Shown: positions 16,108 to 50,742 of the stretch, piece by piece
How the letters are laid out: every line of letters begins with the position of its first letter
Numbering within the stretch: the first letter of the stretch is position 1
Made by a program: the position numbers and the translations under genes
Notes under the pieces: model-generated
Databases searched by the model: none
What the model was told of the DNA's origin: nothing
The model's input: only the letters and a program-made list of their open reading frames with translations
NCBI RefSeq assembly: GCF_001618865.1
Contig: NZ_CP015136.1
Location: 3,507,001 to 3,571,000 of the forward strand
Direction of reading: 5' to 3'
Source: Luteitalea pratensis
Lineage (GTDB): Bacteria > Acidobacteriota > Vicinamibacteria > Vicinamibacterales > Vicinamibacteraceae
DNA: 64,000 nucleotides

Positions 16108-16224
16108 GGAATGCCGCGATGCTGCGATGCCGCGATGCCAGGAATGGCGCGGCTCGCGGCGAGCTCTAGTCCGCCTTCACAGCATGCGGCATTCGCGGCA
16201 TTCCGGCATTTCGGTATTCCACCC

Positions 16225-18169: not shown

Positions 18170-18191
18170 GCACTTTCGTGAGGAGTTCCTT

Positions 18192-19366: not shown

Positions 19367-19440
19367 CGCTGAACGCTGAATGCTGAACGCCGATTGACGC
19401 TCTTCTGCAGCGTTCTGCGTTCGACCCTCGGCGTTCGTCA
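19367..19440. repeat. Heptamer arrays, AACGCTG and GCGTTCG types
   Basis: AACGCTG, AACGCTG, AATGCTG, AACGCCG run in 7-bp register, followed about 15 bases on by complementary-type units (GCGTTCT, GCGTTCG, GCGTTCG). The two halves could pair. They fill the gap before the isomerase gene. Confidence 0.75.
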
Positions 19441-19495
19441 GCATCATCTACAAGCCAGTGGAGGTTGCTCGCTGGCCATAACGAGGAGCCTTTCC

Positions 19496-20458
19496 ATGAA
19501 GCTAGGCGTGTTCACGGCCCTGTTTGCGGGGCTCACGCTGGACCAGGTGATCGAGAAGGTGACGGCGGCCGGACTCGATGCCGTCGAGATCGGCACCGGG
19601 GCCTACCCGGGTGCGGCGCACATCGACGTCGAGGACCTGCTCTCGAGCAAGGCCAAGGCAAAGGCGTACAAGAGGAAGCTCGCCGACGCGGGCCTGACGA
19701 TTTCGGCGCTGTCCTGCCACGGCAATCCGCTGCATCCCGACAAGGCATTCGCAAAGGACCACGACGAGGTATTCCGCAAGACGGTGCGTGTCGCCGAACT
19801 GCTGGGCGTCGGCGTGGTGAACACCTTCTCCGGATGCCCCGGCGACAGCGAGGGCAGCAAGGTGCCCAACTGGATCACCTGCGCGTGGCCGCCCGACTTC
19901 CTGAAGGCGCTCGACTGGCAGTGGGAGAAGAAGGTCATCCCGTACTGGACGCGGGCCGGCAAGTTCGCCAAGGATCACGGCGTCCGCGTGGCCCTCGAGT
20001 CGCACCCGGGGTTTGCGGTCTACAACGTCGAGACCGCGCTGAAGTTGCGCCGCGCCGTGGGCAAGCAGATTGGCGTCAACTTCGATCCGAGCCACCTGTT
20101 CTGGCAGGGCGTGGACGTGCCGGCGGCGATTCACGCGCTTGGTGACGCGATCTTCCACTTCCACGCCAAGGACGTGGCGCTCGACCGCAACAACGCGCGC
20201 CTCAACGGCGTGATCGATGCCAAGTCCTACACGCGGATGACGGAACGCTCCTGGCTGTTCCGCACCGTGGGCTGGGGGCATGGCGCTGGCGACTGGGCCG
20301 AGATCATGAGCGCCCTCCGCCTCGTCGGATACGACCACGTGGTCAGCATCGAGCACGAGGACGCCCTGGCCTCGGTCGATGAAGGCCTGGCCAATGCCGT
20401 GAAATTCCTCCGGCCGCTGATCCTGAAGGAACAACCCGCCGAAGCTTGGTGGGTCTGA
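19496..20458 (+). CDS. Sugar phosphate isomerase/epimerase family TIM-barrel protein
   Basis: 320 residues, cytoplasmic, AP-endonuclease-2-like TIM barrel. Metal-site motifs in order: SALSCHGNPLHP, ALESHPGF (Glu), GVNFDPSHLFWQG (Asp/His), FHFHAKD and SIEHEDALAS (Glu). The ATG at 19496 follows a good ribosome site (CGAGGAG, 19482-19488). The frame extends further upstream through repeats and is not credible there. Family members isomerise or hydrate oxidised sugars and inositol intermediates. As last gene of the 12.6-20.5 kb cluster it probably processes the product of the oxidoreductases. Confidence 0.9.
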   Translation: MKLGVFTALFAGLTLDQVIEKVTAAGLDAVEIGTGAYPGAAHIDVEDLLSSKAKAKAYKRKLADAGLTISALSCHGNPLHPDKAFAKDHDEVFRKTVRVAELLGVGVVNTFSGCPGDSEGSKVPNWITCAWPPDFLKALDWQWEKKVIPYWTRAGKFAKDHGVRVALESHPGFAVYNVETALKLRRAVGKQIGVNFDPSHLFWQGVDVPAAIHALGDAIFHFHAKDVALDRNNARLNGVIDAKSYTRMTERSWLFRTVGWGHGAGDWAEIMSALRLVGYDHVVSIEHEDALASVDEGLANAVKFLRPLILKEQPAEAWWV

Positions 20459-27420: not shown

Positions 27421-27471
27421 TCCTGTCCGGGCCGTCGAGAGTACACTTCCCCCTCAAGGAGACTGTTGCCC

Positions 27472-28329
27472 ATGTCCGACGTCACTCGTCGTGAACTTCT
27501 CGGCGCTGCCGCAGTGACGGCCGCCGCCGCCGCGATGCCGGCGCCTGCCGCCGCCCTGGCCCCATCGACGGGCCGCGTCAAGCAGTCGGTCTGCCGCTGG
27601 TGCTACAACAAGATTCCGCTGCCCGAGTTCTTCAAGGCGTGCGCCGAGATGGGCCTGGGCGCCGTGGACCTCCTCACAGAGGAGGAGTGGATCATCGGCA
27701 AGCGAGACTTCGGACTCGCCTGCTCGACCGGATTCCCGGCGGTGCGCTCGATCCCCGACGGCCTCAACAACACCAAGTTCCACGACGGTATCGTCGCGTC
27801 GCTGACCGAGATGATCCCGAAGGCCGCCAAGGCGGGCATCCCCAATGTCATCACCTTCTTCGGTAACCGTCGCGGTCAGGACATCGAGGAAGCGAAGGTC
27901 AACAGCGTCGCCTGCCTCAACCGCATCAAGCCGGTTGCCGAAGCCGAAGGCGTGACCGTCATCGTCGAACTGCTCAACAGCAAGGTGAACCACAAGGACT
28001 ACATCGGCGACAACACGCCGTATGGCGTGGACATCTGCAAGCGTGTCGGCTCGCCGCGGGTGAAGTTGCTCTACGACATCTACCACATGCAGATCATGGA
28101 GGGCGACATCCTCCGGACGATGGGCGACAACTGGGACTACATCGCCCACCTGCACACCGGTGGCGTGCCCGGACGCAACGAGCTCGACGAGACGCAGGAA
28201 CTGCAGTGGAAGACGATCGCCAAGTGGGTGGCCGACAAGGGCTACCAGGGATACTTCGCGCACGAGTTCGTCCCGAAGCGAGACCCGCTCACGTCACTGC
28301 GTGAGGCCGTGCAGCTCTGCATCGTGTAG
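27472..28329 (+). CDS. Tat-exported hydroxypyruvate-isomerase-like TIM-barrel protein
   Basis: 285 residues. Twin-arginine signal TRRELLGAAAVTAAAAAM, then an AP-endonuclease-2/Hyi-like barrel. Metal-site segments: VIVELLNSK (Glu), LLYDIYHMQIMEGD (Asp/His), IAHLHTGGVPGRNE (His) and YFAHEFVPKRDP (Glu). The ATG at 27472 has AAGGAGA upstream at 27456-27462; a TTG two codons earlier is possible. An exported sugar isomerase is unusual outside groups that process sugars in the periplasm. It fits the Tat-exported oxidoreductases elsewhere in the window. Confidence 0.88.
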   Translation: MSDVTRRELLGAAAVTAAAAAMPAPAAALAPSTGRVKQSVCRWCYNKIPLPEFFKACAEMGLGAVDLLTEEEWIIGKRDFGLACSTGFPAVRSIPDGLNNTKFHDGIVASLTEMIPKAAKAGIPNVITFFGNRRGQDIEEAKVNSVACLNRIKPVAEAEGVTVIVELLNSKVNHKDYIGDNTPYGVDICKRVGSPRVKLLYDIYHMQIMEGDILRTMGDNWDYIAHLHTGGVPGRNELDETQELQWKTIAKWVADKGYQGYFAHEFVPKRDPLTSLREAVQLCIV

Positions 28330-32868: not shown

Positions 32869-33978
32869 CTACGGATTCGACGATGTGGACCCGCCGCTGG
32901 TTGACGCCCATGCGGCCGCGTATTTCTGCATGTCGGCGGCCGAGGGATTGCCGTCGATGAACAGGATGCGGTAGCGGAACGTGGCCGGACGGCCTTCGGC
33001 GATGGCGAAGTTCAACGTGTCCTTGTTGTTGCTGAGCGCCGCCTGACCGAGCGGATTGGCCGCAAACAGCCCATAGCCGCGCGCGTGCCAATAGGTCGGA
33101 TAGCCCGGGTTGCCTGGGGCGTCGAGGATGGCGATCGTCACCGGCTTGCCGCCGACCGTCCCACTCAGCTTGGTCCATGCGCCGCGCGTGCCCCACACTT
33201 CCTTGCCGACCTTGCCTTCGCTGGTCAGGTACTGGCCGGTGACGCCGCTCATGTCCATGTCGCCCATCTTGGTGACGCGTCCGGCGGCATCCTTGAACTC
33301 GCCGCCCTTCTCGGCCGGATCCTCGAGGGCGCGGATCACCCGCAAGCCGAGGGCGCCTTCCTTGTTGTCGGGCAGCTTCACCGTCCCGGTGCCCTTCGCA
33401 GCGGCGAGCGTCGTGACCCGGTCGATCATCCGCACGCCGCCGGCCGCCGCCCTGAACGTGAAGGTGGTCGTCTCGTTCAGGCGCGTCTTGCCGTCACCCG
33501 AGATCCAGTCGGCCTTCACTTCGAGCACCGCATGATCGCCCTTGCTCTCGGCCTTGACCACCTCACGGTGCTTGACCGATCCCATCTTCGGCTTCTGATC
33601 CGGCTTGATCGCGTCGGAGTTGTTCCAGAAGTCGAAGCCGTCCACGTCGCCGTAGTTGAACCACAGGCCGACGTGGTGCGGGTGGTCCTGCCGCTCGTTG
33701 GCGAGGGGTGGGAAGCCGCGCGTGACGACGATGCCGCTCGCGGTGGTGATCGGGTACAGGACTGGCTTCTCGAGCGTGTCCGGCCACATGTAGGTCGTGA
33801 ACGCCTTGCCGTCCACGGTGACCTCGACCTTCTTCTCGGCCGGGACACTTTTGATCGCGACCTTGGGAGACTGCGCGTTCATGCTCGCGGTGGTTGCCAT
33901 GATCAGGCTGGCCGAGCAAAGCGAGGCCATCGCGCCGAAGCGCGCAGCGCGAAGGCGGATGTGACTAGCGTCGTGCAC
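32869..33978 (-). CDS. DUF6807 (PmoA-like) secreted protein
   Basis: 369 residues. GTG start at 33978 chosen because it gives a proper signal peptide (HDASHIRLRAARFG, then a hydrophobic core to SMNAQS) and has AAGGGG upstream; GTG 33996 and ATG 33930 are alternatives. The mature part contains the family landmarks FPPLANERQDHPHHVGLWF, DGFDFWNNSDAI, ILDAPGNPGYPTYWHARGYG and LFIDGNPS. The HHVGLWF segment resembles a metal or sugar site. Function is unestablished, but members sit in carbohydrate loci. The start overlaps the end of the Gfo/Idh/MocA gene by 14 bases, so the two are coupled. Confidence 0.87.
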   Translation of the reverse strand: MHDASHIRLRAARFGAMASLCSASLIMATTASMNAQSPKVAIKSVPAEKKVEVTVDGKAFTTYMWPDTLEKPVLYPITTASGIVVTRGFPPLANERQDHPHHVGLWFNYGDVDGFDFWNNSDAIKPDQKPKMGSVKHREVVKAESKGDHAVLEVKADWISGDGKTRLNETTTFTFRAAAGGVRMIDRVTTLAAAKGTGTVKLPDNKEGALGLRVIRALEDPAEKGGEFKDAAGRVTKMGDMDMSGVTGQYLTSEGKVGKEVWGTRGAWTKLSGTVGGKPVTIAILDAPGNPGYPTYWHARGYGLFAANPLGQAALSNNKDTLNFAIAEGRPATFRYRILFIDGNPSAADMQKYAAAWASTSGGSTSSNP

Positions 33979-35311
33979 TGGGAACCCCTTGTCCACCGAT
34001 CACCACGTCCTGGGTGGCGTCGTCGAATGTGACGCGCTGGCCGGTCTGGATGGCGGCGATGGTCATGCACAGCGCCACCGAGTGACTGTAGCCGGCCTCG
34101 ACGCTCGCGTTCGGCGGCTTGCGGCTCCGCACGCACTCCATCCAGTTGCGCACGTTGGCCGACGTCGAGTCGTCAGCGCCCGTGTCGGCGGCCGTCGTCG
34201 TGGCTGAAGCCTCCGCGATCGACATCGATGGCAGGAGGTTGGCCTTCATGCCCATGGCCTTCGCGTGGTTCTCCTTCATCCCGCCGGTGTCGGTCACGGT
34301 GTTCTTGTCCAGATCGAGCATGCCGCCGTTGGAGTAGTAGTACTCCTTCACGTCACCCGCGGCGTTGGTCATGCGCGAGCTGTAGATGACCTGGAAGCCC
34401 TTGGTCGTGTCGTCCAGCGGGCCGTAGTCGTAGACGCCGGTGAAGGTGTCCCAATTGCGACGGCCGTCCTTCCACAGGTAGATGCCGCCGTTGGCGACGA
34501 CACTGCGCGGTCGCGGGTAACCGGTGAACCAGTGCACGGTATCGATCTGGTGGACGAGCCACTGATCGGGAATGCCCGAGGAGTACGGCCAGAACAAGCG
34601 GAATTCCAGGTACTTGCGCGGGTCGAACGCTTCCTTCGGACGATTCAGCTGCCACCGCGTCCAGTCGGTGTCCTCCTGCCGCAGCTTGTCGATCAGGCCT
34701 GGCCGTCGCCAGCGTCCGGGCTGGTTGACGTTCCACGTCATCTCGACGGCGACGATGTCGCCGAACTTGCCCGACTTCAAATACTCGTAGGCTTGCTGGT
34801 AGCTCTTCGTGCTCCGGCGCTGCGTGCCGATCTGCACGATCTTGCCGGTGTCCTTCACCGCCTTGCGGAGGGCGCGAGCGTCCTCCATGGTGTTGGCCAT
34901 GGGCTTCTCGACGTACGCGTCGCGTCCGGCGCGCACCGCTTCGACCCCGTGCTGCGCGTGCTGGAAGTCGGCCGTCGCGACGATGACCGCGTCCACGTCC
35001 TTGCGGGCGTAGAGTTCGTCATTGTTCCGACAGGTGATGGGGGCAGTATTTCCGAGCTTCTGCAATTGCTGGCTGCCGGCCTCGCGGCGCAGGCTCCAGA
35101 TGTCGGAGACGGCGACCAGTTCGAAGTTGAGCCCGGCGGCGTGCTGCTGGAACGCCGGGATCAGGCTGCCGCGGCACCGGTCGGAGAAGCCGACAATGCC
35201 GACGCGGACACGATCGTTGGCGCCAAGGATACGGGCGTAGCTGCGGGCGGGAAGGCTCGCCGCGGCGGCGGTCATGCCGGCTGCGTGCAGGAATTGTCGT
35301 CGGTCTGGCAT
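33965..35311 (-). CDS. Tat-exported Gfo/Idh/MocA family oxidoreductase
   Basis: 448 residues. Twin-arginine-like signal MPDRRQFLHAAGMTAAAASL, then a Rossmann domain RVGIVGFSDRCRGSLIPAF and the EKP motif in AYVEKPMANTMED. The C-terminal domain carries QWLVHQIDTVHWFTG with the conserved His and the NGGMLDLDKNT strand. Periplasmic members bind their nicotinamide cofactor tightly and work as oxidoreductases or transferases on sugars. GGAGG stands nine bases before the ATG. Upstream of the DUF6807 gene and overlapping it, so a two-gene operon. Confidence 0.9.
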   Translation of the reverse strand: MPDRRQFLHAAGMTAAAASLPARSYARILGANDRVRVGIVGFSDRCRGSLIPAFQQHAAGLNFELVAVSDIWSLRREAGSQQLQKLGNTAPITCRNNDELYARKDVDAVIVATADFQHAQHGVEAVRAGRDAYVEKPMANTMEDARALRKAVKDTGKIVQIGTQRRSTKSYQQAYEYLKSGKFGDIVAVEMTWNVNQPGRWRRPGLIDKLRQEDTDWTRWQLNRPKEAFDPRKYLEFRLFWPYSSGIPDQWLVHQIDTVHWFTGYPRPRSVVANGGIYLWKDGRRNWDTFTGVYDYGPLDDTTKGFQVIYSSRMTNAAGDVKEYYYSNGGMLDLDKNTVTDTGGMKENHAKAMGMKANLLPSMSIAEASATTTAADTGADDSTSANVRNWMECVRSRKPPNASVEAGYSHSVALCMTIAAIQTGQRVTFDDATQDVVIGGQGVPSARR

Positions 35312-35446: not shown

Positions 35447-35808
35447 ATCTCCGCACGTACCTACGCCGCGCGTCCGCACGTGCCTGCGCCGCAGCCGCCC
35501 AGGATGACTGGTCGAACCACTCCGGCGTTGTTACACATCTCTTTGCGCTGTGAGAAGTACTACATAGACGTGATTGTGCGCAAGCGGGGATGCAAGAGGT
35601 CAACCCACTTGTCCTCGACGGGGTGCCGGAGGGCGCAAGGTGGTTCTTGACCGCACAGAGTGGCTGTGTTAAACCCTTTGAGGTTCTCCTCTCTCCATGC
35701 TCTTGCGTCCACGCCGGTTGACGGCTTCGAGCGCGCTGCTGCGCGCCGCCTGGTGCACCGCCCGAGCGATGCAGCGTCGGCGTAGCCATGCAGGTGAGTG
35801 GCGAGACA

Positions 35809-35824
35809 ACTAGCGATAGCTAGT
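35809..35824. promoter_or_regulatory. Perfect palindrome upstream of TonB receptor gene
   Basis: ACTAGC-GATA-GCTAGT, a 6-4-6 palindrome in an AT-richer segment. Could bind a dimeric regulator of the receptor. No regulator can be named. Confidence 0.35.
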
Positions 35825-35995
35825 ACGGACCAGGTAGGGCAGGTTTTCTTTCTGCGACGCGCGGTGGTTGCCCGACGTGCGAAGCAGTTGTGGCCGTCCC
35901 AGGCACGGCGCCGCTGGGGCGCAGGGACGGCTGTAGGTGCCAGGCGGGCAGGCTGGGACGCATGTCCCGGCATACGACAAGGAAGGAACGGATTT

Positions 35996-38900
35996 ATGGG
36001 GAAGCTCCACGTGAGGAGGAGCCTGCAACGCCTGATGGCGTGTGCAGTGCTGCTGCTCGCCGGTTCGCCGGCGTTCGCGCAGTTCGAACGCAGCCGCGTC
36101 GCCGGCACCATCAACGACCAGCAGGGCGGCGTCATGCCGGGCGTGACCGTCACGGCCACTAACCAGGCGACCAACCAGACCGAAGTCAGCGTCACCGACG
36201 AATCCGGCTTCTACATCTTCCCGAGCCTTGCGCCGGGGCAATACACGATCAGCGCCGAACTGCAAGGGTTCAAGAAGGCGACGCGCACGGCCGTACAGCT
36301 CGACGCGGCCGGTTCCATCACGATGGACCTCACGCTCGAGACCGGTGCCTTGACCGAAGAGGTCACGGTGACGGCCGATGCGGCGTTGCTGCAGACCGAC
36401 GTGGCGATGCGCAAGACCGTTGAATCCAAGGACATCGAGCAGATGGCGCTCGCCGGGCGCAACCCGATTGGCGTGGCGGGCCTCAAGGCGGGCGTCGCCG
36501 GCGGGTCCTTCAACAACTATGGCTTTGACAACCTCGGCAACGGCGGCTTCAACATCAACGGCAGCCGTGACGATGAGAACAACATCACGATCGATGGCGC
36601 CACCGCCATTCGCACCCGCGCCTCGGGCAACATCATCGGCATCCAGAACGTGGACGCCGTGCAGGAAGTGCAGGTGCTGACGGCCAACTACATGCCGGAG
36701 TACGGGCGTGCCTCGGGCGGCCAGATCCGCTTCGTGACCAAGAGCGGCAGCAATCGCTTCAGCGGCAGCGGGACGTATTCCTACCGCGACGAGTCGCTCC
36801 AGGCCAACAGCTGGACGCGCAATCGGAGTACCAACCTCACGGAGAGCAGTGGTCCCGCGCCGTTCGACTTCAAGCAGTACGGATACTCCGGCGGCGGCCC
36901 GGTGCTGAAGAACAAGCTGTTCTTCTTCGGTGGCCAGGAGTGGGTGGACTTCTTCCAGGTCTCGACGCGAACCGATACCGTGCCGACGCTGAAGATGCGC
37001 CAGGGTGACTTCAGCGAGCTGCTCGATCCGAACAACGGCTACCGCGCCGCGATCGCGATCATCGATCCGCAGACCGGCCAGCCGTTCCCGGGCAACATCA
37101 TCCCGGCCAACCGGTTGTCACAAGAGGGGCTGGCGTTCCTGAACACGTACCCGACGCCGACCCCCGATTTCCGGCAGGGGGCGAACAACCTGATCCAGAC
37201 CAGCCCGAACCCGCGCGAACAACGCAAGGACAACATCCGCTTCGACTGGCGGCCGAACGCGAGCAACCAGTTCAACTACCGCTACTCGGGCTACAGCTGG
37301 AAGGCCGTGGACGCGTACCGCGGGTCGTTCCCGTTCGTCCGGACCGACTGGGATCGTCCCAACTACACGAACACCGCGAGTTGGACCAGCACCATCAAGA
37401 GCAACTGGGTGAACGAGCTCACGTACACGTATTCGCGCGACTACGTCTACATCAACGTGTTCGAAGGTGGCGACTACCTGCGAAGCACACGGGGCATCGA
37501 CTATCCGTACGTGTTTCCCGATAACAAGGAGATCAACGACAAGCTGCCGACGATCAGCGTGAGCAACTTTGCGGAGATCGACGGCGGCCCCTACCCGGCG
37601 TTCTCGACCGGTCCGATCCACACCGTCCAGAACGTGAGCACGATCCTGCGTGGCCGTCACACGTTCAAGGCCGGCATCTCCTTCGAGTACTCCGGTCAGA
37701 ACGACTTCGACCAGATCAACGTCAGCGCCGTGCCTGGCAGCACGAACAACCAGAACGGCCGCTTCGAGTTCCTCGATGGCCGCGCCGGTGGCACGGGCGT
37801 CGGCGTCGCGAACATGGCCCTCGGCCTGTTCTCCAACTACGCCGAACTCGGCGAGCGCAACCTCACCGAATGGCGCTCGCTCGCCACGGATGCCTTCGTC
37901 CAGGACTCGTGGCGGCCGAACAGCAAGCTGACGGTCGAAGGCGGATTCCGGTACGTCTACTGGCCGCCCTGGTACTCGAATACCAACAACATCGCGACGT
38001 TTGCCGACAAAGCGTACATCGCGGCCAATGCGCCGACCGTGAACCGTGCCACCGGCACGCTGTCGGGTGGCGTGCGCTACAACGGCCTGATGCTCCCCGG
38101 CGATGGCTTCGAGGGCGCGGGGAACGACTCGGTGATTGCCAACGATCCGGCCGTGCTGGCGCTCTTCACGGGCCAGCCGCGCGGGTTCTCGGAGACGCAC
38201 GCCAACGTGTTCGAACCGCGCGGCGGCATCAGCTATCAGCTGAACGAAAAGACCGTCGTGCGCACCAGCGTCGGCATGTTCCACAACCGCGTGACGCTCA
38301 ACGACTCGACGCTGCTCGGCGGCAACGTGCCGTTCCAGCCGCAGGCGACGATCTCGAATGGCGTCGCGGACAACCCGGCCGGCGTGGGGGTCAACCCGGG
38401 CAACCTGCCGATCGGCGCTACTGCGCAGGACCTCGTGTTCAAACACCCGACTTCCTACATGTGGTCGGCGAGCGTGCAGCGCGAAATCCCGATGGGCTTC
38501 ATCCTCGATGTCAGTTACGTGGGACGTCGAGGCCTGTACCTGCCGCGCGAACGCAACATCAACCAGTTGGCGCCCGGAACCTTGCAGTCCAATCCCGGGG
38601 TGAACATCGCCGCGCTGCGCCCGTATGCGGGCTACGGCGCGATCCGTCTTTCCGAGAATGCAGGCCGATCGATTTACAACTCGCTGCAGATCTCCGCGGA
38701 TCGTCGCTACACGAATGGGTTCAAGTTCGGCTTCGCATACACGCTGGGCAAGTCGGAAGACAATGGCTCCTCCAAGCGCAACGTGCTGTTCAACAGCTAC
38801 GACGACACGACGTACTGGGGGCCGTCCCAGTTCGATCGGCGCCACGTACTGGCGTTCTACTACATCTACGACCTGCCGTTCTTCCGTGAGCAGGACACGC

Positions 38901-39403
38901 TCATCAAGAATCTGCTCGGCGGGTGGCAGGTCTCTGGCGCGACGTTCATGCGCAGCGGCATCCCGTTCTCTGTGTACCAGAGAAACCGCGACACGGCGGG
39001 CGTTGGCGATCAGGGCTTCGGCCAGCCCTGGAACCTCGTCGGCGATCCGGGCGACATGAACTACCAGCTGTACACGGTGCCGGGGACCGAGGCGTTCAAC
39101 ACGGCCGCCTTCGCTGAGCCGGCCGCCGGCACGTTCGGCAACGCCCCGAGGAACGCGTGGTACAACCCCGGCGAGCAGCAGTGGGATATCGCGCTGTTCA
39201 AGAACTTCACGCTTGGCGGCACGCGACGCATCCAGTTGCGCGCAGAGGCCTTCAACTTCATCAACCACCCGAACCTCGGCAACATCGACAACGGGGACCT
39301 TCAAGGTCAGAGGCAGGCCGATCCGCTGAGCGGCAACTTCGGCCGCATCACCAGCAAGAACGGTCAGCGCGACCTCCAGCTGAGCGTCCGCTTCCAGTTT
39401 TAA
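35996..39403 (+). CDS. Oar-like TonB-dependent outer-membrane receptor
   Basis: 1135 residues. Signal peptide (MGKLHVRRSLQRLMACAVLL to AFAQ), a carboxypeptidase-regulatory-like domain (RVAGTINDQQGGVMPGVTVT, residues about 30-110), a plug with NPIGVAGLKAGVAGG and VDAVQEVQVLTANYMPEYG, then a large barrel with SGGGPVLKNKLFFFGGQEW. It ends LSVRFQF, the terminal aromatic of outer-membrane barrels. The ATG at 35996 has GGAAGGA upstream. Such receptors import glycans or peptides and often act with the hydrolases encoded nearby. It is less similar to the two paralogues at 57.6-64 kb than they are to each other. Confidence 0.95.
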   Translation: MGKLHVRRSLQRLMACAVLLLAGSPAFAQFERSRVAGTINDQQGGVMPGVTVTATNQATNQTEVSVTDESGFYIFPSLAPGQYTISAELQGFKKATRTAVQLDAAGSITMDLTLETGALTEEVTVTADAALLQTDVAMRKTVESKDIEQMALAGRNPIGVAGLKAGVAGGSFNNYGFDNLGNGGFNINGSRDDENNITIDGATAIRTRASGNIIGIQNVDAVQEVQVLTANYMPEYGRASGGQIRFVTKSGSNRFSGSGTYSYRDESLQANSWTRNRSTNLTESSGPAPFDFKQYGYSGGGPVLKNKLFFFGGQEWVDFFQVSTRTDTVPTLKMRQGDFSELLDPNNGYRAAIAIIDPQTGQPFPGNIIPANRLSQEGLAFLNTYPTPTPDFRQGANNLIQTSPNPREQRKDNIRFDWRPNASNQFNYRYSGYSWKAVDAYRGSFPFVRTDWDRPNYTNTASWTSTIKSNWVNELTYTYSRDYVYINVFEGGDYLRSTRGIDYPYVFPDNKEINDKLPTISVSNFAEIDGGPYPAFSTGPIHTVQNVSTILRGRHTFKAGISFEYSGQNDFDQINVSAVPGSTNNQNGRFEFLDGRAGGTGVGVANMALGLFSNYAELGERNLTEWRSLATDAFVQDSWRPNSKLTVEGGFRYVYWPPWYSNTNNIATFADKAYIAANAPTVNRATGTLSGGVRYNGLMLPGDGFEGAGNDSVIANDPAVLALFTGQPRGFSETHANVFEPRGGISYQLNEKTVVRTSVGMFHNRVTLNDSTLLGGNVPFQPQATISNGVADNPAGVGVNPGNLPIGATAQDLVFKHPTSYMWSASVQREIPMGFILDVSYVGRRGLYLPRERNINQLAPGTLQSNPGVNIAALRPYAGYGAIRLSENAGRSIYNSLQISADRRYTNGFKFGFAYTLGKSEDNGSSKRNVLFNSYDDTTYWGPSQFDRRHVLAFYYIYDLPFFREQDTLIKNLLGGWQVSGATFMRSGIPFSVYQRNRDTAGVGDQGFGQPWNLVGDPGDMNYQLYTVPGTEAFNTAAFAEPAAGTFGNAPRNAWYNPGEQQWDIALFKNFTLGGTRRIQLRAEAFNFINHPNLGNIDNGDLQGQRQADPLSGNFGRITSKNGQRDLQLSVRFQF

Positions 39404-39517: not shown

Positions 39518-39731
39518 CCGTTCTCCCGGTCACCGGTTGGCGATACACTCCGGCACAACCATGGTTCCTCCACGTCATCGCTCTCGGCCGCAGAGCGGGG
39601 TCCTGCCGGACAAGTGGTCCATGGCGGTCGGGGCACCGGCAGTCTCGATATGCGATCAGGCAGCCGGCAGCCCGCAGGCATTAGGCCGTAGGCTGCGAAT
39701 ATCGTTGGAGTCCGGCAGTTACCTCACCGTC

Positions 39732-40688
39732 GTGAGTCTTCTGTCGCTCGGCGCCGCCGTGCTCGCGGCGCAGCCGGCGCCCAAGGCCGTTCCTGCGGCT
39801 GCCTACACAGAGACCATTCCTGGTAGCAAGGTTTCCTTCGACATGGTCGCCGTCCCCGGCGGCACCTTCACGATGGGGAGTCCCGCGAGTGAGGCGGGCC
39901 GCGACGCGGACGAAGGCCCGCAGGTCGAGGTCACGCTGAAGCCGTTCTGGATCGGCAAGACCGAGGTCACCTGGGACGAGTTCGATCAGTTCGCATTCGT
40001 CGGCAACACGGGCGCACGCACTGGCGACGGTGGAGCGGGCGACAGTGACGCCGTCAGCAAGCCATCACGAGCCTATGGCGACGAGGCGAAGGGCTACGGC
40101 AAGGGCAAGATGCCGGCGCTGGCGATGACGCAGCACGCGGCGATGGAGTACTGCCGATGGCTGTCGCAGGTCACCGGCAAGGCCTATCGCCTGCCGACCG
40201 AGGCTGAATGGGAGTACGCCGCCCGTGCTGGCGATACGACGGCGCGTCCTGCCACCCTCGAGGAGCAGGCGTGGCACGCCGGGAACGCGAAGGAGACACC
40301 GCACATCGTCGGCACGAAAAAGCCCAACGCGTTCGGCCTGTACGACATGCTCGGCAACGTCGCGGAGTGGACCTTCGATCTCTACGCCGAGAATCGCTAC
40401 GCGCAATGGGCCCCGAAGGCGACGCAGCCCGTGGCGCTGCCGACCGACAAGCGGTATCCGCACCCGACCCGGGGCGGGTCGTTCATCGAGGCGGCCGACA
40501 AGCTCCGTTTCGCGAACCGGCAGGCATCGCACGAGGACTGGAGCCAGCGCGATCCGCAGGTGCCCCAGAGCATCTACTGGCACACCGACGCCGATCACGT
40601 CGGCTTCCGTGTGGCCCGTGCGCTCGACGAGCAGGCGAACCTCAAGGGGTTCAAGAGCAAGGTGATCAAGGAGAGTGCGGACAGGTAG
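39732..40688 (+). CDS. Secreted formylglycine-generating-enzyme (SUMF1) family protein
   Basis: About 318 residues. SUMF1/FGE-sulfatase fold: VSFDMVAVPGGTFTMGSP opening, KPFWIGKTEVTWDEFDQF, YCRWLSQVTGKAYRLPTEAE, WEYAARAGD, GLYDMLGNVAEWTFD, and the closing TRGGSFIEAADKLRFANR and DHVGFRVARA. True FGEs have two active-site Cys near the C-terminus; none is evident here, so it is probably a non-FGE member (binding or other oxidase role). The start is uncertain: GTG 39732 opens a short hydrophobic signal, and TTG 39705 is another choice. An inverted repeat GCGGA/TCCGC spans the stop codon. Confidence 0.85.
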   Translation: MSLLSLGAAVLAAQPAPKAVPAAAYTETIPGSKVSFDMVAVPGGTFTMGSPASEAGRDADEGPQVEVTLKPFWIGKTEVTWDEFDQFAFVGNTGARTGDGGAGDSDAVSKPSRAYGDEAKGYGKGKMPALAMTQHAAMEYCRWLSQVTGKAYRLPTEAEWEYAARAGDTTARPATLEEQAWHAGNAKETPHIVGTKKPNAFGLYDMLGNVAEWTFDLYAENRYAQWAPKATQPVALPTDKRYPHPTRGGSFIEAADKLRFANRQASHEDWSQRDPQVPQSIYWHTDADHVGFRVARALDEQANLKGFKSKVIKESADR

Positions 40689-40701
40689 TCCGCAAATTGC
40701 A

Positions 40702-40794
40702 GAATTTCATTATTTCAGAATTTCACAGCCACCGGAGCGCTCCGAGGGCTGTCAATGGTAAGGAAATTGTGAAATCTTGAAATTGTGAAATTCC
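40702..40794. repeat. Inverted pair of AT-rich octamer arrays (C2)
   Basis: Left arm 40702-40725: GAATTTCA, TTATTTCA, GAATTTCA. Right arm 40763-40794: GAAATTGT, GAAATCTT, GAAATTGT, GAAATTCC. Centre of 37 GC-rich bases with CCGGAGCGCTCCG. Confidence 0.88.
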
Positions 40795-40811: not shown

Positions 40812-42089
40812 ATGTCCGAACAATCTGGATCGACACGGCGAGACTTCCTCAAGACGACAACGGCGGCTGCCGTGGGCAGCGGCCTCGCGGGGTGGAGCGT
40901 CATCCCGGGGGCTCACGCGCAGGGCAGCGACGAAATCCGCATCGGCCTGATCGGTGCGGGTGGGCGCGGCAGCGGCGCCGTCGCCGACGTGTTCAAGGGG
41001 CATGAGACCGGGGTCCGCCTGGTCGCCGTTGGCGACATGTTCAGCGACCGCACGGAGCAGGCGGTCAAGCGGCTGTCGGAGCAGTACGGCGCGCGTGCGG
41101 CAGTGAAGCCCGAGCACGTGTTCACGGGCTTCGACGCGTACCAGAAGGTGCTCGCCGTGCCGGACGTGAACTACGTGATCCTCGCGACGCCGCCGGGTTT
41201 CCGGCCGACGCATCTCGAGGCCGCGATCGGCGCCGGCAAGAACACCTTCACCGAGAAACCGCTGGCTGTCGATGGCCCCGGCATCCGCAAGGTGATGGCG
41301 CTGGCCAAGGAGGCTGACGCCAAGGGCATCAGCATCGTCGGCGGCACGCAGCGCCGGCACCAGCACGGCTACATCGAGACGATGAAGCGCGTGCACGGCG
41401 GCGCCATCGGCGACGTCGTCGGCATGCGGGCGTACTGGAACCAGGGGTTCCTCTGGAAGCGCGATCGCCAGCCGGCCTGGAGCGACATGGAGTGGCAGCT
41501 GCGCAACTGGCTGTACTTCACGTGGCTTTCGGGCGACCACATCGTCGAGCAGCACATCCACAACATCGACGTGATCAACTGGGTCAAGAAGGGGCCACCG
41601 GTGAAGGCCACCGGCATGGGTGGGCGGCAGGTGCGCACCGACAAGGCCTACGGCCACATCTTCGACCACTTCGCGATCGACTACGAGTACCCGGACGGCT
41701 CGCACTCGTTGAGCATGTGCCGCCAGATCGACAACTGCGCCAACAGCGTCTCGGAGGCCATCGTCGGCACCAAGGGCAGCGCGCAGCTGGACAAGTACGA
41801 GATTACGGGTTCGGCAGCGTGGAAGGGCGAGAAGGATCCGATCAGCCCGTACGTGCAGGAGCACATCGACCTGATCCGCATCATCCGCGCCGGGCAGAAG
41901 ATCAACGAGTTGCAGACGGTCGCCGAGTCGACGCTGACGGCGATCATGGGCCGGATGTCGGCCTACAGCGGCAAGGCGGTGACGTGGGACGAGGCGCTGA
42001 ATTCCGCGGAGGCGATCGTGCCCGCAAGCCTGCAGCTCGGACCGATCCCGACGCCGCCCGTGCCGATGCCCGGTCAGGGCACCATCTGA
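40812..42089 (+). CDS. Tat-exported Gfo/Idh/MocA family oxidoreductase
   Basis: 425 residues. Tat signal STRRDFLKTTTAAAVGSGL, mature start AQGSDEIRIGLIGAGGRGSG, EKP motif in NTFTEKPLAVDGPG, then QRRHQHGYIETMKRVHGG and GDHIVEQHIHNIDVINWV with the catalytic His region. It is followed by a DUF1080 gene and a sugar MFS gene, a combination seen in keto-glycoside loci. It carries GEKDPISPYVQEHIDLI near the C-terminus, typical of the exported subgroup. Substrate unknown; a glycoside oxidoreductase role is inferred. Confidence 0.92.
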   Translation: MSEQSGSTRRDFLKTTTAAAVGSGLAGWSVIPGAHAQGSDEIRIGLIGAGGRGSGAVADVFKGHETGVRLVAVGDMFSDRTEQAVKRLSEQYGARAAVKPEHVFTGFDAYQKVLAVPDVNYVILATPPGFRPTHLEAAIGAGKNTFTEKPLAVDGPGIRKVMALAKEADAKGISIVGGTQRRHQHGYIETMKRVHGGAIGDVVGMRAYWNQGFLWKRDRQPAWSDMEWQLRNWLYFTWLSGDHIVEQHIHNIDVINWVKKGPPVKATGMGGRQVRTDKAYGHIFDHFAIDYEYPDGSHSLSMCRQIDNCANSVSEAIVGTKGSAQLDKYEITGSAAWKGEKDPISPYVQEHIDLIRIIRAGQKINELQTVAESTLTAIMGRMSAYSGKAVTWDEALNSAEAIVPASLQLGPIPTPPVPMPGQGTI

Positions 42090-42102
42090 GAAGGACGAGC
42101 AA

Positions 42103-42354
42103 TTGGAAATTCCCGATTTCAAATTGCCAGGCACTTCTACCTCCCGGGTCGCGACGCGGACCTCGCGTGCGGCCCGGGCCTGCCTCTTTGTCGCCCTCTC
42201 GGCCCTTGCCGTGCCGGCCTGCCAGCACTTCGAGGGCGAGGGCAGCGCCTCGCGCGAGACGGCCCAGGCCCTCGAACGCCGGCCTGCTCCCGCCGCGGTG
42301 ACGGCGGATGCCCGGCCGCCGCGCGTCGAGCTGAAGCTCGACGCCTACAGTTGA
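42103..42354 (+). CDS. Possible small lipoprotein
   Basis: 83 codons. After a charged N-terminus (RVATRTSRAARA) comes LFVALSALAVPACQHFEGEG, an approximate lipobox with Cys at about residue 40. The rest is Ala/Pro/Arg-rich. The ATG lies inside an octamer-like repeat (AATTGGAA, ATTCCCGA, TTTCAAAT), so the true start is doubtful. Codon use is consistent with coding, but no family is recognised. Could be a chance open frame. Confidence 0.35.
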   Translation: MEIPDFKLPGTSTSRVATRTSRAARACLFVALSALAVPACQHFEGEGSASRETAQALERRPAPAAVTADARPPRVELKLDAYS

Positions 42355-42446
42355 TCTCCCGCTGGAGAAAGCCTTCAGTCGGATCACGAGCACCCGGCAG
42401 TGGCGACTCGGGGCGCTCTGCGCCGGCTCCGCCGACGACTGTAGCC

Positions 42447-42494
42447 GTCGACCTTCCACCTCCGCCAAGGCTACGGCGGACAAGTCAGGTCGAC
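42447..42494 (+). repeat. 48-bp GTCGAC-bounded structured repeat, copy 2
   Basis: Same 48-base length and arms as the copy at 6592. The inner stem has changed on both sides (TCCGCC with GGCGGA) while remaining complementary. Confidence 0.85.
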
Positions 42495-42556
42495 GGCATG
42501 CCCGAACCTGCGGAATGCTCGACGCCTGCCGTCGATCTGGCGCTGGAGAATGCCTC

Positions 42557-42562
42557 TATACT
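42557..42562 (+). promoter_or_regulatory. Putative -10 box of the DUF1080 gene
   Basis: TATACT stands 58 bases upstream of the ATG and close to the end of a diverged direct repeat (GCTGGAGAAAGCC at about 42362, GCTGGAGAATGCC at 42542). No good -35 is visible. Confidence 0.35.
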
Positions 42563-42620
42563 GCAGCGCTGACCACGCTGGGGCGCTGTGCACCCCGCCG
42601 ATCTCCCAGGAGTTCTCTCG

Positions 42621-43307
42621 ATGACGCGGATTGCATCTCTGGCGCCTATCGCCATTCTGGGCCTGAACGTCGCGGCGTTCGCGCAACCGGCCGCGGCCAC
42701 GAAGGACGCGGGCTGGACGGCGTTGTTCGACGGCAAGTCGTTGGCCGGCTGGCGCGCCTTCAAGAGCGAGACGCCGCCACCCGGATGGATGGTCAAGGAC
42801 GGTGTCCTCGTGCACAGCGGCACGGGCGGCGACCTGATGACCGTCCGCGAGTTCGGGAGTTTCGAACTCGAACTCGACTACAAGATCGCGATCGGCGGCA
42901 ACAGCGGCATCATGTACCGCGTCGTCACCGAGGGCGATGCGCCCTACTGGAGCGGCCCCGAGTACCAGATCCTCGACAACGAGCGTCACCCCGACGCCAA
43001 GAACGGCCCGGACCGGCTCTCCGGCGCCAACTACGACCTGATCGCGCCGTCTGCCGCCGTGAGCAAGCCCGCAGGCGAGTGGAACACCGCGAAGATCGTC
43101 GTCCAGGGCAACCACGTGGAGCACTGGCTGAACGGCACCAGGGTGGTCGAGTACGAGTTCGGCAGTCCGGCCTGGACGACGCTGGTGGCCGAAAACAAGT
43201 TCAAGGCATGGCCGATCTACGGCAAGGCCGCCAGGGGACACATCGTGCTCCAGGATCACGGCAACGTCGTCGAGTTCCGCAACATCCGGATCAAGGACCT
43301 GAACTGA
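42621..43307 (+). CDS. Secreted DUF1080 protein, 3-keto-glycoside hydrolase/lyase-like
   Basis: 228 residues. Signal peptide MTRIASLAPIAILGLNVAAFAQ, then one PF06439 concanavalin-like domain: GWTALFDGKSLAGWR, GWMVKDGVLVHSG, SFELELDYKIAIGGNSGIMY, GPEYQILDNERHPDA, NTAKIVVQGNHVEHWLNG and the closing GNVVEFRNIRIKDL. Family knowledge: characterised members cleave 3-keto-glycosides made by sugar 3-dehydrogenases or Gfo/Idh/MocA enzymes. AGGAG lies eight bases before the ATG. It overlaps the MFS gene by one base and follows the exported oxidoreductase. Confidence 0.92.
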   Translation: MTRIASLAPIAILGLNVAAFAQPAAATKDAGWTALFDGKSLAGWRAFKSETPPPGWMVKDGVLVHSGTGGDLMTVREFGSFELELDYKIAIGGNSGIMYRVVTEGDAPYWSGPEYQILDNERHPDAKNGPDRLSGANYDLIAPSAAVSKPAGEWNTAKIVVQGNHVEHWLNGTRVVEYEFGSPAWTTLVAENKFKAWPIYGKAARGHIVLQDHGNVVEFRNIRIKDLN

Positions 43308-44518
43308 TGCCGATCGCCGTCCGCCTCAAGCTCTCCCTCCTCATGTTCCTCCAGTACTTCATCTGGGGGACGTGGTACGTGACGATGGGGCCGTACCTGA
43401 ACGAGACGCTCAAGTTCAGTGGCCCGCAGCAGGGGCTGGCCTATGGCGCCACCGCGCTGGCAGCCATCGTCTCGCCGTTCTTCGTGGGCATGGTCGCCGA
43501 CCGGTTCTTCGCCACCGAGAAGATTCTGGCGGTGCTGCACCTGGTGGGAGGGCTGCTGCTGTTCTACGTCTCGACCCTCGACAGCTTTAGCACCTTCTAT
43601 CCGGTGCTGCTGATCTACACCTTGTGCTACATGCCGACGCTGGCCCTGGCCAACTCGCTGTCGTTCCGGCAGATGAAGGATCCCGGCAAGGAGTTCCCCG
43701 GCATCCGGGTGCTCGGCACGATCGGCTGGATTGTCGCGGGTTATGCGATTGCGGTGCTCGGGTTCGGCACCAGTGCTGGCATGTTCCAGGCGGCCGCGGC
43801 CGCCTCGATCGCGCTCGGCCTCTACAGCTTTGCGCTCCCGCACACGCCCCCGACCAGCGTCGGCCACGCCGTCACCATGCGCGACATTCTCGGCCTCGAC
43901 GCACTCGCGCTGATGAAGGAACGCTCGTTCCTGATCTTCGTGCTCGGCTCATTCCTGATCTGCATCCCGCTGCAGTTCTACTACGGGCTCGCGGGCACGT
44001 TCCTCAGCGAGATCGGCGTGGCGAATGTATCGAGCAAGATGACGCTCGGTCAGTGGTCCGAGATCGGCTTCATGCTCCTGATGCCGTTCTTCTTCGTCCG
44101 GCTCGGCGTGAAGTGGATGCTGATCGTCGGCATGATCGCGTGGACGGTGCGCTACACGTTGTTCGCCCTCGGGGATGCAGGCGCGGGGATGTGGATGCTT
44201 TACGTTGGCATCCTGCTGCACGGCATCTGCTACGACTTCTTCTTCGTCACCGGCCAGATCTACGTCGACAAGAAGGCGCCGGCGCATCTGCGCGGTGCGG
44301 CACAGGGCTTCATCGCGTTCGTCACGCTGGGCGTCGGCATGTTCATCGGCTCGCTCGTGTTCGGACCGGTCGTCGACGCCTACAAGCTGGTCGACGCCTC
44401 GGGCGTCGTCAGCCACACCTGGTCCGCCATCTGGGTCTTTCCGGCTGCCGCCGCATTGCTGGTGCTCGTCCTCTTCGCCGCGATGTTCAACGACCGCGTG
44501 GCGACCGAAGCAAAGTAG
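43307..44518 (+). CDS. MFS sugar/nucleoside:H+ symporter (NHS-type)
   Basis: 403-residue inner-membrane protein, about 12 helices. The first helix LMFLQYFIWGTWYVTMGPYL and the segment FVGMVADRFFATEKILAVLH match the nucleoside/sugar symporter family found beside DUF1080 and Gfo/Idh/MocA genes. The ATG overlaps the DUF1080 TGA (TGATG), so expression is coupled. It probably imports the keto-sugar or monosaccharide released by the DUF1080 enzyme. Substrate assignment is inferred. Confidence 0.9.
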   Translation: MPIAVRLKLSLLMFLQYFIWGTWYVTMGPYLNETLKFSGPQQGLAYGATALAAIVSPFFVGMVADRFFATEKILAVLHLVGGLLLFYVSTLDSFSTFYPVLLIYTLCYMPTLALANSLSFRQMKDPGKEFPGIRVLGTIGWIVAGYAIAVLGFGTSAGMFQAAAAASIALGLYSFALPHTPPTSVGHAVTMRDILGLDALALMKERSFLIFVLGSFLICIPLQFYYGLAGTFLSEIGVANVSSKMTLGQWSEIGFMLLMPFFFVRLGVKWMLIVGMIAWTVRYTLFALGDAGAGMWMLYVGILLHGICYDFFFVTGQIYVDKKAPAHLRGAAQGFIAFVTLGVGMFIGSLVFGPVVDAYKLVDASGVVSHTWSAIWVFPAAAALLVLVLFAAMFNDRVATEAK

Positions 44519-44528
44519 GACACGCGCC

Positions 44529-44627
44529 ATTTCACAATTTCAGAAGTTCAGAATTCCACTACCGCCGCCACGCGTAGGACTGTCCCGGTGGTGGTGAAAT
44601 TCTGAAATTCCTGCAATTCTGCAATTC
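44529..44627. repeat. Inverted pair of AT-rich octamer arrays (C3)
   Basis: Left arm 44529-44560: ATTTCACA, ATTTCAGA, AGTTCAGA, ATTCCACT. Right arm 44596-44627: GAAATTCT, GAAATTCC, TGCAATTC, TGCAATTC. The array ends three bases before the ATG of the next gene, so it displaces any Shine-Dalgarno site. Confidence 0.88.
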
Positions 44628-49710: not shown

Positions 49711-49770
49711 ATGCCTGATGTTCGAAGGCCCACGGCCGACCGACTAAGGCCGACAAGGAGTCCGTCACTG

Positions 49771-50742
49771 ATGTCCATTTCTCGTCGTGCGTTGTTGGGC
49801 GCCGCTGGCACAGCCGCAGCTGCCGCGGCCCTGCAGGTCGTCCCGTCCTCGTCTGCGTTCGCGCAGCGTACCGGGCCCACTCCGGCATCGCTCGGCAAGG
49901 GGCCGGGCCGCATCAAACTTGGCGTGTCGTCCTACTCGTACTGGCACTTCCGGCCGGAGAACGACCCGTATCCGATCGAGAAGGTCATCGAGCATGCCGC
50001 GTCGGTCGGCGTCGAGGGCGTGGACATCCTGCACCGCCAGATGAAGGGCGAGGACAACGCGTACCTGCAGCGCCTCAAGAAGCACGCGTTCGTCAACGGC
50101 ATCGACCTGATCGCGTTGTCCATTCACCAGGGCTTCGTGTTCCCGGATGCCGCCGAGCGGCAGAAGAACATCGACCACACGGTGCACTGCATGGAACTGG
50201 CCTACGCGATGGGCATCCCGTGCCTGCGCCTGAACACCGGCCGCTGGAACACCACCAAGTCGTTCGACGACCTGATGGCCAACAAGGGCATCGAGCCAGT
50301 GCTGCCCGGTGCGACCGAAGCCCAGGGCTTCGAATGGTGCATCTCGTCGATCGAGAAGTTGTTGCCGACCGCCGAGAAGCTCGGTGTGGTGTTGGCCCTC
50401 GAGAACCACTGGGGCCTGGCACGCACCGCCGACGGGCTGATGCGGATCGTCGACGCCGTCAACTCGCCATGGCTCGGCGTGCTCGCCGACACGGGCAACT
50501 TCCTCGACGATCAGTACGCGCAGTTCGAGAAGATCGCACCAAAGACGGTCTTCGTGCAGGCCAAGACGTACGAGGGCGGCGGCGAGTGGTACTCGCTCGA
50601 CATCGACTACGCCCGCATCGCGAAGATCCTCGCCGCGCAGCAGTATCGCGGCTATGTCTCGCTGGAGTTCGAAGGCAAGGCGCCCGCCCAGGAGGCGGTG
50701 CCGAAGGCCGTCGCACAACTGCGGGCGGCGTTCAAGGGGTAG
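49771..50742 (+). CDS. Tat-exported sugar phosphate isomerase/epimerase-like TIM-barrel protein
   Basis: 323 residues. Twin-arginine signal SISRRALLGAAGTAAAAAAL. Barrel with LGVSSYSYWHFRPEND, VEGVDILHRQM, ALSIHQGFVFPD, VVLALENHWGLARTADG (Glu), WLGVLADTGNF (Asp), VQAKTYEGGGEWY and GYVSLEFEGKAPAQE (Glu). Third isomerase-type barrel in the window and second exported one. AAGGAG upstream at about 49757 supports the ATG. It probably handles an oxidised or keto sugar in the periplasm. Standing alone between repeat arrays. Confidence 0.88.
   Translation: MSISRRALLGAAGTAAAAAALQVVPSSSAFAQRTGPTPASLGKGPGRIKLGVSSYSYWHFRPENDPYPIEKVIEHAASVGVEGVDILHRQMKGEDNAYLQRLKKHAFVNGIDLIALSIHQGFVFPDAAERQKNIDHTVHCMELAYAMGIPCLRLNTGRWNTTKSFDDLMANKGIEPVLPGATEAQGFEWCISSIEKLLPTAEKLGVVLALENHWGLARTADGLMRIVDAVNSPWLGVLADTGNFLDDQYAQFEKIAPKTVFVQAKTYEGGGEWYSLDIDYARIAKILAAQQYRGYVSLEFEGKAPAQEAVPKAVAQLRAAFKG

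Follow-up and report, generated by a model that had tools for sequence, protein, structure and literature searches.

Luteitalea pratensis (phylum Acidobacteriota) carries, at positions 40,812 to 44,518 of a 64,000-base stretch of its genome, genes for a Gfo/Idh/MocA oxidoreductase (below, Gfo) with a twin-arginine translocation (Tat) signal, for a secreted protein of the DUF1080 family, and for a transporter of the major facilitator superfamily (MFS). The stretch, called the window throughout, comprises bases 3507001 to 3571000 of one 7,480,314-base contig. An earlier note had read the three genes as a single exported keto-glycoside unit. The reading that we prefer, tentatively and at a probability of roughly 0.4, is that two gene sets stand side by side and do not form one conserved unit: an exported cassette (module 1), in which the Gfo is accompanied by a protein resembling formylglycine-generating enzyme (FGE-like), and a DUF1080-MFS module (module 2). 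We separate the two because the Gfo and the MFS protein keep different conserved neighbors, namely, FGE-like proteins and AP_endonuc_2 barrels for the Gfo and DUF1080, GMC, and LacC proteins for the MFS.

Gene content of the region

The identities of the genes, their export signals, the one-base overlap, and the conserved neighbors described below are read directly from the sequences. The Gfo gene (40812..42089, on the forward strand, as are all genes listed here unless noted) matches PF01408 (50 bits; cut-off, 24) and PF22725, and ahead of it lies the gene for a secreted FGE-like protein of the SUMF1/PvdO type (39537..40688; PF03781, 148 bits), whose real start is probably near 39.7 kb. The Gfo stop codon is followed after 531 bases by the DUF1080 (3-keto-disaccharide hydrolase family) gene (42621..43307), whose product is a member of PF06439 (188.7 bits; cut-off, 26.8) with 4jqt, 3hbk, 8tda, and 8rr2 among its solved relatives; its best start is the ATG at 42621, after which a Sec-type signal is recognizable by eye. 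The MFS gene (43307..44518) belongs to the Pfam family Nuc_H_symport (PF03825, 391.6 bits; cut-off, 25.9), of which this genome holds two copies, and its product falls below the cut-off of the NCBIfam nucleoside permease model TIGR00889 (379.7 versus 446.1 bits). All three gene types had been named before on the basis of the letters alone, and they are present as claimed; the description of the MFS gene as overlapping is also correct, because the DUF1080 stop codon (43305-43307) and the MFS start codon (43307-43309) have one base in common. Between the Gfo and DUF1080 genes, an 82-codon open reading frame (ORF) at 42103-42352, with a TTG start and a lipobox-like ALAVPAC seen by eye, may encode a small lipoprotein or be due to chance.

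Conserved neighbors of the Tat-type Gfo

Of 297 genomes sampled from the phylum, 46 encode homologs of the Gfo (E values up to 1e-60), and from these 46 we took the 20 best-scoring loci by rank, one per genome, excluding G209 (short contig). A wider set consists of the best 80 of at least 575 matches to two peptide patterns in public genomes; it overlaps the 20-locus set (L227/L041) and spans Acidobacteria, Aminicenantes, Planctomycetota, Verrucomicrobia, Armatimonadetes, Bacteroidetes, Gemmatimonadetes, KSB1, Hydrogenedentota, and Rhodothermales, with phylum labels set by hand. Neighbors were detected with hidden Markov models (HMMs) built from own-genome matches, with an HMM of seven FGE-like proteins, and with phmmer, Pfam being used only where named.

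As a unit, the Gfo, DUF1080, and MFS genes are not conserved: DUF1080 or MFS genes are near the Gfo in none of the 20 Acidobacteriota loci, and in the wider set, DUF1080 adjoins the focal Gfo in 2/80 loci and MFS in 0/80, the two being found anywhere in the fetched stretch in 5/80 and 7/80, respectively. The genes that recur are an AP_endonuc_2 barrel, in 16 of the 20 Acidobacteriota loci, and an FGE-like gene, in 6. Of the 80 loci, 29 have the FGE-like gene immediately upstream of the focal Gfo, 31 have a barrel next to this Gfo, and 55 show one or the other arrangement. When any Gfo of the locus is counted, 43 loci have the FGE-like gene in that position, a number raised by the orders FGE-Gfo-barrel-Gfo-barrel and FGE-Gfo-Gfo seen in some of them (two or more Gfo genes are present in 30/80), and the combined count becomes 60/80. 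As a baseline, among 56 Gfo matches in the L. pratensis genome itself, the FGE-like gene is upstream of one (that of the window) and a barrel adjoins six; since its HMM was built from seven FGE-like proteins, the FGE-like baseline covers this subgroup alone.

The association spans several phyla: the gene immediately before a Gfo is FGE-like in 6/10 loci of Acidobacteria, 21/32 of Planctomycetota, 4/8 of Verrucomicrobia, 5/11 of Armatimonadetes, and 2/3 of Bacteroidetes; an adjoining barrel is found in none of the 8 Verrucomicrobia loci and in many loci of other phyla. Module 1, as predicted from these sequences, is an exported enzyme cassette found across many bacterial phyla, and its conserved neighbors define a specific set of genes in place of a general "sugar" annotation. 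Given the position of the window's own FGE-like gene, the conserved neighbor of the Gfo is therefore on the opposite side from DUF1080. Within the L. pratensis genome, 6 of 26 DUF1080 matches lie within 5 kb of a Gfo, a mild excess over random placement (mean, 2.1; maximum, 7 in 500 shuffles); a DUF1080 match with an internal stop (5582443) was dropped, and a partial barrel match (2589736) was omitted from the proximity test. A second Gfo of this type in the same genome (bases 1247995-1250351 of the contig; 41% identical) has an FGE-like ORF just downstream, not upstream, and the second PF03825 MFS gene of the genome is about 16 kb away from it.

The barrels beside the Gfo in Acidobacteriota all have as their best match in L. 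pratensis a Tat-type barrel at 6.42 Mb (16/16; 41 to 55% identity), the barrel at 27.5 kb of the window being the second match (32 to 39% over part of the length). Among 53 barrels of the wider set, 28 best match the 6.42-Mb barrel, 9 the window barrel at 49.8 kb (25 to 37% identity where shown), 5 that at 19.4 kb, and 3 that at 27.5 kb, with 8 matching none. The 49.8-kb barrel is thus not favored as the partner of the Gfo, because the Acidobacteriota barrels match the one at 6.42 Mb, yet nine of the wider barrels weakly prefer it; barrels of the 27.5-kb type sit in Gfo loci L292 (47%) and L301 (53%). The suspected conserved co-occurrence of Tat-type Gfo proteins with Tat-type barrels is borne out, 46 of these 53 barrels having a Tat-like signal by a loose pattern. 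The keto-glycoside reading of the region fits the DUF1080-MFS pair, which belongs to gene sets of the 3-keto type (see below).

Five loci (L242, L246, L250, L281, and L292) have the order Gfo-barrel-Gfo-barrel behind an FGE-like gene, and their products mostly have Tat-like signals (none is seen for the L281 barrel at 3065, and the signals are unclear for three L292 proteins and one L242 protein). The annotated order in Parabacteroides distasonis is SUMF1/EgtB/PvdO, Gfo, sugar phosphate isomerase, two LuxR regulators, and a TonB receptor; its Gfo and FGE-like domain are 42% and 40% identical to those of the window, and its barrel is weakly similar (24%) to the 6.42-Mb barrel. On plasmid NZ_OY725790.1 of this species (L305, 4144-5721), a NapC/NirT-FGE-like fusion is followed by the Gfo and the barrel, both Tat-lipoprotein-like by eye. 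Genetics may be possible in this gut bacterium. In the window, a gene for an outer-membrane beta-barrel with a carboxypeptidase-regulatory domain (35798..39403, start uncertain; PF25183, 621.9 bits; PF13620, 66.2 bits) lies directly upstream of the FGE-like gene. In L052 and L053, the gene after the barrel encodes a related protein, and the Parabacteroides cassette has its TonB receptor near the end; the window protein is possibly the uptake pore of the cassette.

Conserved neighbors of the DUF1080-MFS pair

MFS homologs (E values up to 1e-60) are present in 63 of the 297 genomes and DUF1080 homologs (up to 1e-45) in 49. The 20 MFS loci that we compared comprise 17 from the ranked list, several entries of which were skipped, and 3 (L221 to L223) picked as having DUF1080 already seen nearby. 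DUF1080 is present in 10 of these loci and abuts the MFS gene on the same strand in 5 (L206, L208, L209, L210, and L212), while barrels occur in 13, Gfo genes in 8, GMC homologs in 7, and LacC homologs in 4; GMC, LacC, DUF1080, and MFS occur together in L206, L208, L209, and L222. The 20 loci contain 13 Gfo genes in all, and for none of them is the Tat-type Gfo of the window the best match.

The window holds counterparts of these neighbors some distance upstream. A Gfo without a signal (18192..19355), a candidate cytoplasmic keto-sugar reductase whose closest NCBIfam model is levoglucosan dehydrogenase (197 bits, below the cut-off of 650), and an AP_endonuc_2 barrel without a recognized signal (19394..20458) are matched jointly in L205, L209, and L219 (58 to 64% and 57 to 66% identity, respectively), the barrel alone being matched in L211, L212, and L217 (54 to 66% over all six loci). 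The best structural match of this barrel is 2zds (E value, 4e-15), followed by the 2-hydroxy-3-keto-glucal hydratase 8ro4 (7e-9). Beside this pair are genes for a Gluconate_2-dh3 (LacC-like) subunit with an RR signal seen by eye (13688..14338; PF13618, 97.9 bits), a LacA-like candidate GMC oxidoreductase (14341..16107, start uncertain; PF05199, 82 bits; PF00732, 48 bits), and a second GMC oxidoreductase (16111..18072; PF05199, 61 bits). In L210, a barrel 56% identical to the 27.5-kb barrel adjoins the DUF1080-MFS pair. Elsewhere in the L. pratensis genome (bases 2377068-2378411, minus strand), a 617-codon frame contains both an AP_endonuc_2 barrel and a DUF1080 domain in an apparent fusion.

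Export signals

The N terminus of the Gfo, MSEQSGSTRRDFLKTTTAAAVGSGLAGWSVIPGAHAQG, contains an arginine pair shared by all 16 aligned Acidobacteriota sequences, that of the window among them, and also by all of 34 sequences from several phyla, 33 of which come from the 80 wider loci and were chosen since their match extends to the N terminus. The protein scores 25.4 against the NCBIfam model TAT_signal_seq (cut-off, 16.7), and the genome has two TatC genes. With its arginine pair, its hydrophobic h-region, and translocase genes at hand, the Gfo is by sequence a Tat substrate whose export is predicted.

Three further window proteins had been described as exported, and RR signals are indeed present in each: in the barrel at 49.8 kb (49711..50742; PF01261, 115.8 bits) and in a second Gfo at 34 kb (33965..35311, reverse strand; PF01408, 59.7 bits, with a TAT_signal match), both by pattern, and in the barrel at 27.5 kb (27466..28329; PF01261, 85 bits), by eye only. 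The last was missed by the patterns because they scan just ahead of the domain match, which begins late in this protein. Structural matches of the 49.8-kb barrel are led by 4ovx (E value, 2e-16), followed by DgpC1 (9m3b; 2e-8). Genome wide, the Tat pattern is found in 27 of 56 Gfo matches and 13 of 38 barrel matches, and in no internal stretch of the same proteins; a looser pattern gives 33/56 and 17/38, and a stricter one, which bars lysine after the motif and undercounts, gives 14/56 and 14/38. Exported Gfo/Idh/MocA proteins and AP_endonuc_2 barrels are accordingly predicted to be numerous in this genome.

Family, fold, and conserved residues of the Tat-type Gfo

In the alignment of 34 sequences, the RR pair, EKP, and most of GDHIVEQHxHN are invariant; beside the EKP lysine lie the fully conserved D242, E246, and H250 and the almost fully conserved H248. 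The best NCBIfam match is inositol 2-dehydrogenase, at 65 bits below the cut-off of 355. We also considered membership in the BT_2158_fam glycoside 3-dehydrogenases (NF058561) and rejected it, the Gfo scoring 35.5 bits against a cut-off of 750; the best protein of the genome, at 1096477, reaches 483.7 bits. An AlphaFold model (pLDDT, 89) is nearest to YjhC, RgNanOx, aldose-aldose oxidoreductase, inositol dehydrogenases, and glucose-fructose oxidoreductase (GFOR), at 13 to 21% identity; for Zymomonas-type GFOR, identity is 13 to 14% and the TM score by query length is 0.63 to 0.65. A profile search with the Gfo family places inositol dehydrogenases on top (E value, 1e-21) and includes the GH109 glycosidase 2ixa (7e-10). 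The PDB profile search gave no match at a threshold of 1e-25 and, at 1e-5, only matches to Gfo proteins in general.

The FGE-like partner

The FGE-like protein shares PF03781 with the PvdO/formylglycine-generating enzyme superfamily, and its nearest solved structure is PvdO (5hha; E value, 5e-28). The hallmark of formylglycine-generating enzymes is a catalytic cysteine pair, and the subgroup lacks a conserved one: across 44 sequences, no cysteine falls in columns conserved at 80%. Unlike that enzyme, the subgroup has a conserved DPQxPxSxWW motif. An AlphaFold model of the FGE-like protein was discarded (pLDDT, 40).

Some members are fused to cytochromes. Among 46 FGE-like ORFs of the 80 loci, CxxCH motifs occur in 4, all from Verrucomicrobia (L233, L279, and the near-identical L287 and L295), and four copies of the motif are present in the Parabacteroides protein; Pfam searches on four fusions found a NapC/NirT multiheme domain in Parabacteroides (L305), PSCyt1 in L279 and L287, and a cbb3-type cytochrome c in L233. 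This minority feature hints at electron transfer. The cassette might then couple a nicotinamide redox unit outside the cytoplasm to the respiratory chain: the Gfo would take NAD(P) out via Tat and oxidize a glycoside supplied by an outer-membrane receptor, with the FGE-like partner serving as electron outlet or inlet. The lack of CxxCH in the other 42 of the 46 ORFs speaks against such coupling, which we regard as very unlikely. The FGE-like/Gfo/barrel cassette is the less familiar part of the finding: among the listed papers of the openly licensed literature, judged by title and abstract opening, none links FGE-like and Gfo proteins, and those that mention SUMF1 together with MocA all concern human disease.

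Proposed functions

From gene content, we infer the reactions, compartment, substrate, and transport direction of both modules. Module 1 would consist of the FGE-like protein and the Tat-exported Gfo, the matching Tat-type barrel being encoded elsewhere in the genome (6.42 Mb). In the periplasm, the Gfo probably uses a tightly held NAD(P), brought out by Tat, to oxidize a sugar or glycoside, and the barrel may then eliminate, hydrate, or epimerize the keto product. In module 2, the DUF1080 protein would cleave 3-keto-glycosides in the periplasm and the MFS protein import the freed (keto-)sugar, which the predicted cytoplasmic Gfo and barrel (18.2 to 20.5 kb) could restore to the normal hexose. 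The 3-keto substrate would most likely come from the LacABC-type GMC dehydrogenase (13.7 to 18.1 kb) and possibly also from exported Gfo enzymes. Should this proposal for module 2 hold, an MFS protein labeled as a nucleoside symporter would instead import a cleaved keto-sugar.

Comparison with known systems

In Bacteroides thetaiotaomicron, BT2158 is termed a periplasmic glycoside 3-dehydrogenase (PMC11300592), and single mutants of BT2157 and BT2158 have no growth defect on raffinose-family sugars (PMC11501099). The BT2156-BT2160 cluster resembles the window in joining an extracytoplasmic Gfo with a DUF1080 hydrolase (BT2157, a 3-ketotrehalose hydrolase); unlike BT2158, the window Gfo lies far below the family cut-off and has an FGE-like conserved neighbor, and the window DUF1080 stands with an MFS gene. 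A barrel and a second Gfo also belong to the Bacteroides cluster.

For Caulobacter lactose use, it has been proposed that periplasmic LacABC oxidizes and a secreted DUF1080 protein hydrolyzes the sugar; nearby genes specify a transporter, two epimerases, and a reductase (PMC9007349). This gene set, from Caulobacter crescentus, is close to that of module 2, and a PF03825 match is present in the Caulobacter vibrioides control genome; in the window, unlike in C. crescentus, the GMC genes are distant from the DUF1080-MFS pair, and a Tat-type Gfo lies beside it. DUF1080 family members differ in activity (PMC9007349). An extracytoplasmic 3-keto route had been called little described, which is too strong given BT2158 (PMC11300592) and the LacABC-DUF1080 proposal (PMC9007349); since a periplasmic Gfo-based route is in print for Bacteroides, such a route is not new as a general idea.

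The AtOGE operon (PMC10628242) and the levoglucosan set LgdA/B1/B2/C, whose four enzymes were shown to carry out oxidation, elimination, hydration, and reduction (PMC7676230), each have two oxidoreductases and two "isomerase" proteins, a gene content resembling that of the five Gfo-barrel-Gfo-barrel loci, which differ in that most products are Tat-like and in their extra FGE-like partner. By analogy, we propose that the exported cassette would perform such chemistry outside the cytoplasm. The "isomerase" label formerly applied to the window barrels is unsafe, as some proteins annotated as sugar phosphate isomerases have eliminase activity and, in preliminary data, hydratase activity (PMC10628242). 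The window Gfo has the fold of Zymomonas GFOR and Caulobacter aldose-aldose oxidoreductase at 13 to 19% identity, and evidence for dismutation is lacking for it. Zymomonas GFOR, itself a Gfo, leaves the cytoplasm through Tat and retains its NADP. A 2024 Nature paper reportedly describes a glycan pathway of broad specificity in gut bacteria that proceeds through oxidation, elimination, hydration, and reduction.

Alternative explanations

Several observations sit poorly with two separate modules. An FGE-like gene and a barrel flank the same Gfo in just 5/80 loci, and the many short contigs (9/80 have less than 1.2 kb upstream) make the neighbor counts lower bounds. DUF1080, Gfo, barrel, and GMC genes are all missing from four of the 20 MFS loci (L213, L214, L215, and L224), three others were preselected, as noted above, for nearby DUF1080, and in the window itself, 24.5 kb separate the end of the second GMC gene from DUF1080; the rejection of the Gfo by the BT_2158 model counts here as well. 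A Phycisphaerales locus (L242) has FGE-like, Gfo, barrel, Gfo, barrel, and DUF1080 genes in a row, an opposite-strand Gfo and barrel (closest, at 32% and 29%, to the window pair at 18 to 20 kb), and an MFS gene, all within 10 kb and confirmed by Pfam; an Aquisphaera plasmid (L306) reads DUF1080-Gfo-barrel, and L255 and L285 are the two loci in which DUF1080 adjoins the Gfo. Because L242 unites all kinds of parts, a functional link between the modules is possible, and they can evidently stand together, though they usually stand apart. These loci, the adjacency of the three window genes on one strand, and the presence of MFS genes in the flanks of 7/80 loci, despite only two family copies in the L. 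pratensis genome, favor a single pathway in which the exported Gfo makes a 3-keto-glycoside, DUF1080 cleaves it, and the MFS protein imports the product. We nevertheless consider that pathway unlikely in view of the absence of DUF1080 and MFS near the Gfo in the 20 Acidobacteriota loci, their scarcity in the wider set, the placement of the Gfo outside the BT_2158 family, and the occurrence in relatives of DUF1080-MFS pairs without this Gfo type and with GMC genes.

The Gfo might instead be a self-contained redox-neutral enzyme like RgNanOx/YjhC or GH109, in which, after oxidation of the substrate by bound NAD, a single site carries out elimination and hydration and the product is finally reduced by NADH, leaving DUF1080 and the barrel unneeded. 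RgNanOx is such an enzyme, with tightly bound NAD (PMC7535918), and similar working would suit the periplasm, as it would dispense with an electron acceptor outside the cytoplasm. YjhC and RgNanOx are the top folds, the GH109 glycosidase is matched by the family profile, and the conserved D242, E246, H250, and H248 beside the EKP lysine fit as well. Identity to YjhC and RgNanOx is, however, 17 to 18%, with similar scores for many other Gfo folds, the profile search ranks inositol dehydrogenases first, the then superfluous barrel adjoins in 31/80 loci, and two or more Gfo genes occur in 30/80, which makes this rather unlikely. Those same inositol dehydrogenase matches, including the best NCBIfam model, and the endo-xanthanase/lichenase with a single DUF1080 domain cited in PMC9007349 would agree with an absence of 3-keto chemistry, the Gfo oxidizing a free polyol or aldose and the DUF1080 protein being polysaccharide binding or endo-acting. 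The gene neighbors of DUF1080-MFS in relatives argue against this, as does the resemblance of the signal-less barrel to, among others, 2-hydroxy-3-keto-glucal hydratase, and we judge it improbable.

Other features of the window

A promoter and terminator scan found no promoter-like site and one terminator-like site, not above shuffled sequences. Downstream of the MFS gene (44631-46976) are genes for a HipA-like kinase (PF20613) and a DDE_3 transposase (PF13358). Intergenic elements of about 100 bases, each with an array of 8-base units (GAAATTCT/GAAATTGT) on one strand, a spacer, and an inverted array, lie before the 18-kb Gfo (18075-18175), before the Tat-type Gfo (40695-40792), and after the MFS gene (44528-44626). 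Their pattern has 17 matches in the window (0.14 expected) and 184 overlapping matches genome wide, against 0 for the reversed pattern. In RNA folding, two of the three elements beat all 200 shuffles (z scores, -4.95 and -3.85), and the third has a z score of -1.8, with 8/200 shuffles as good.

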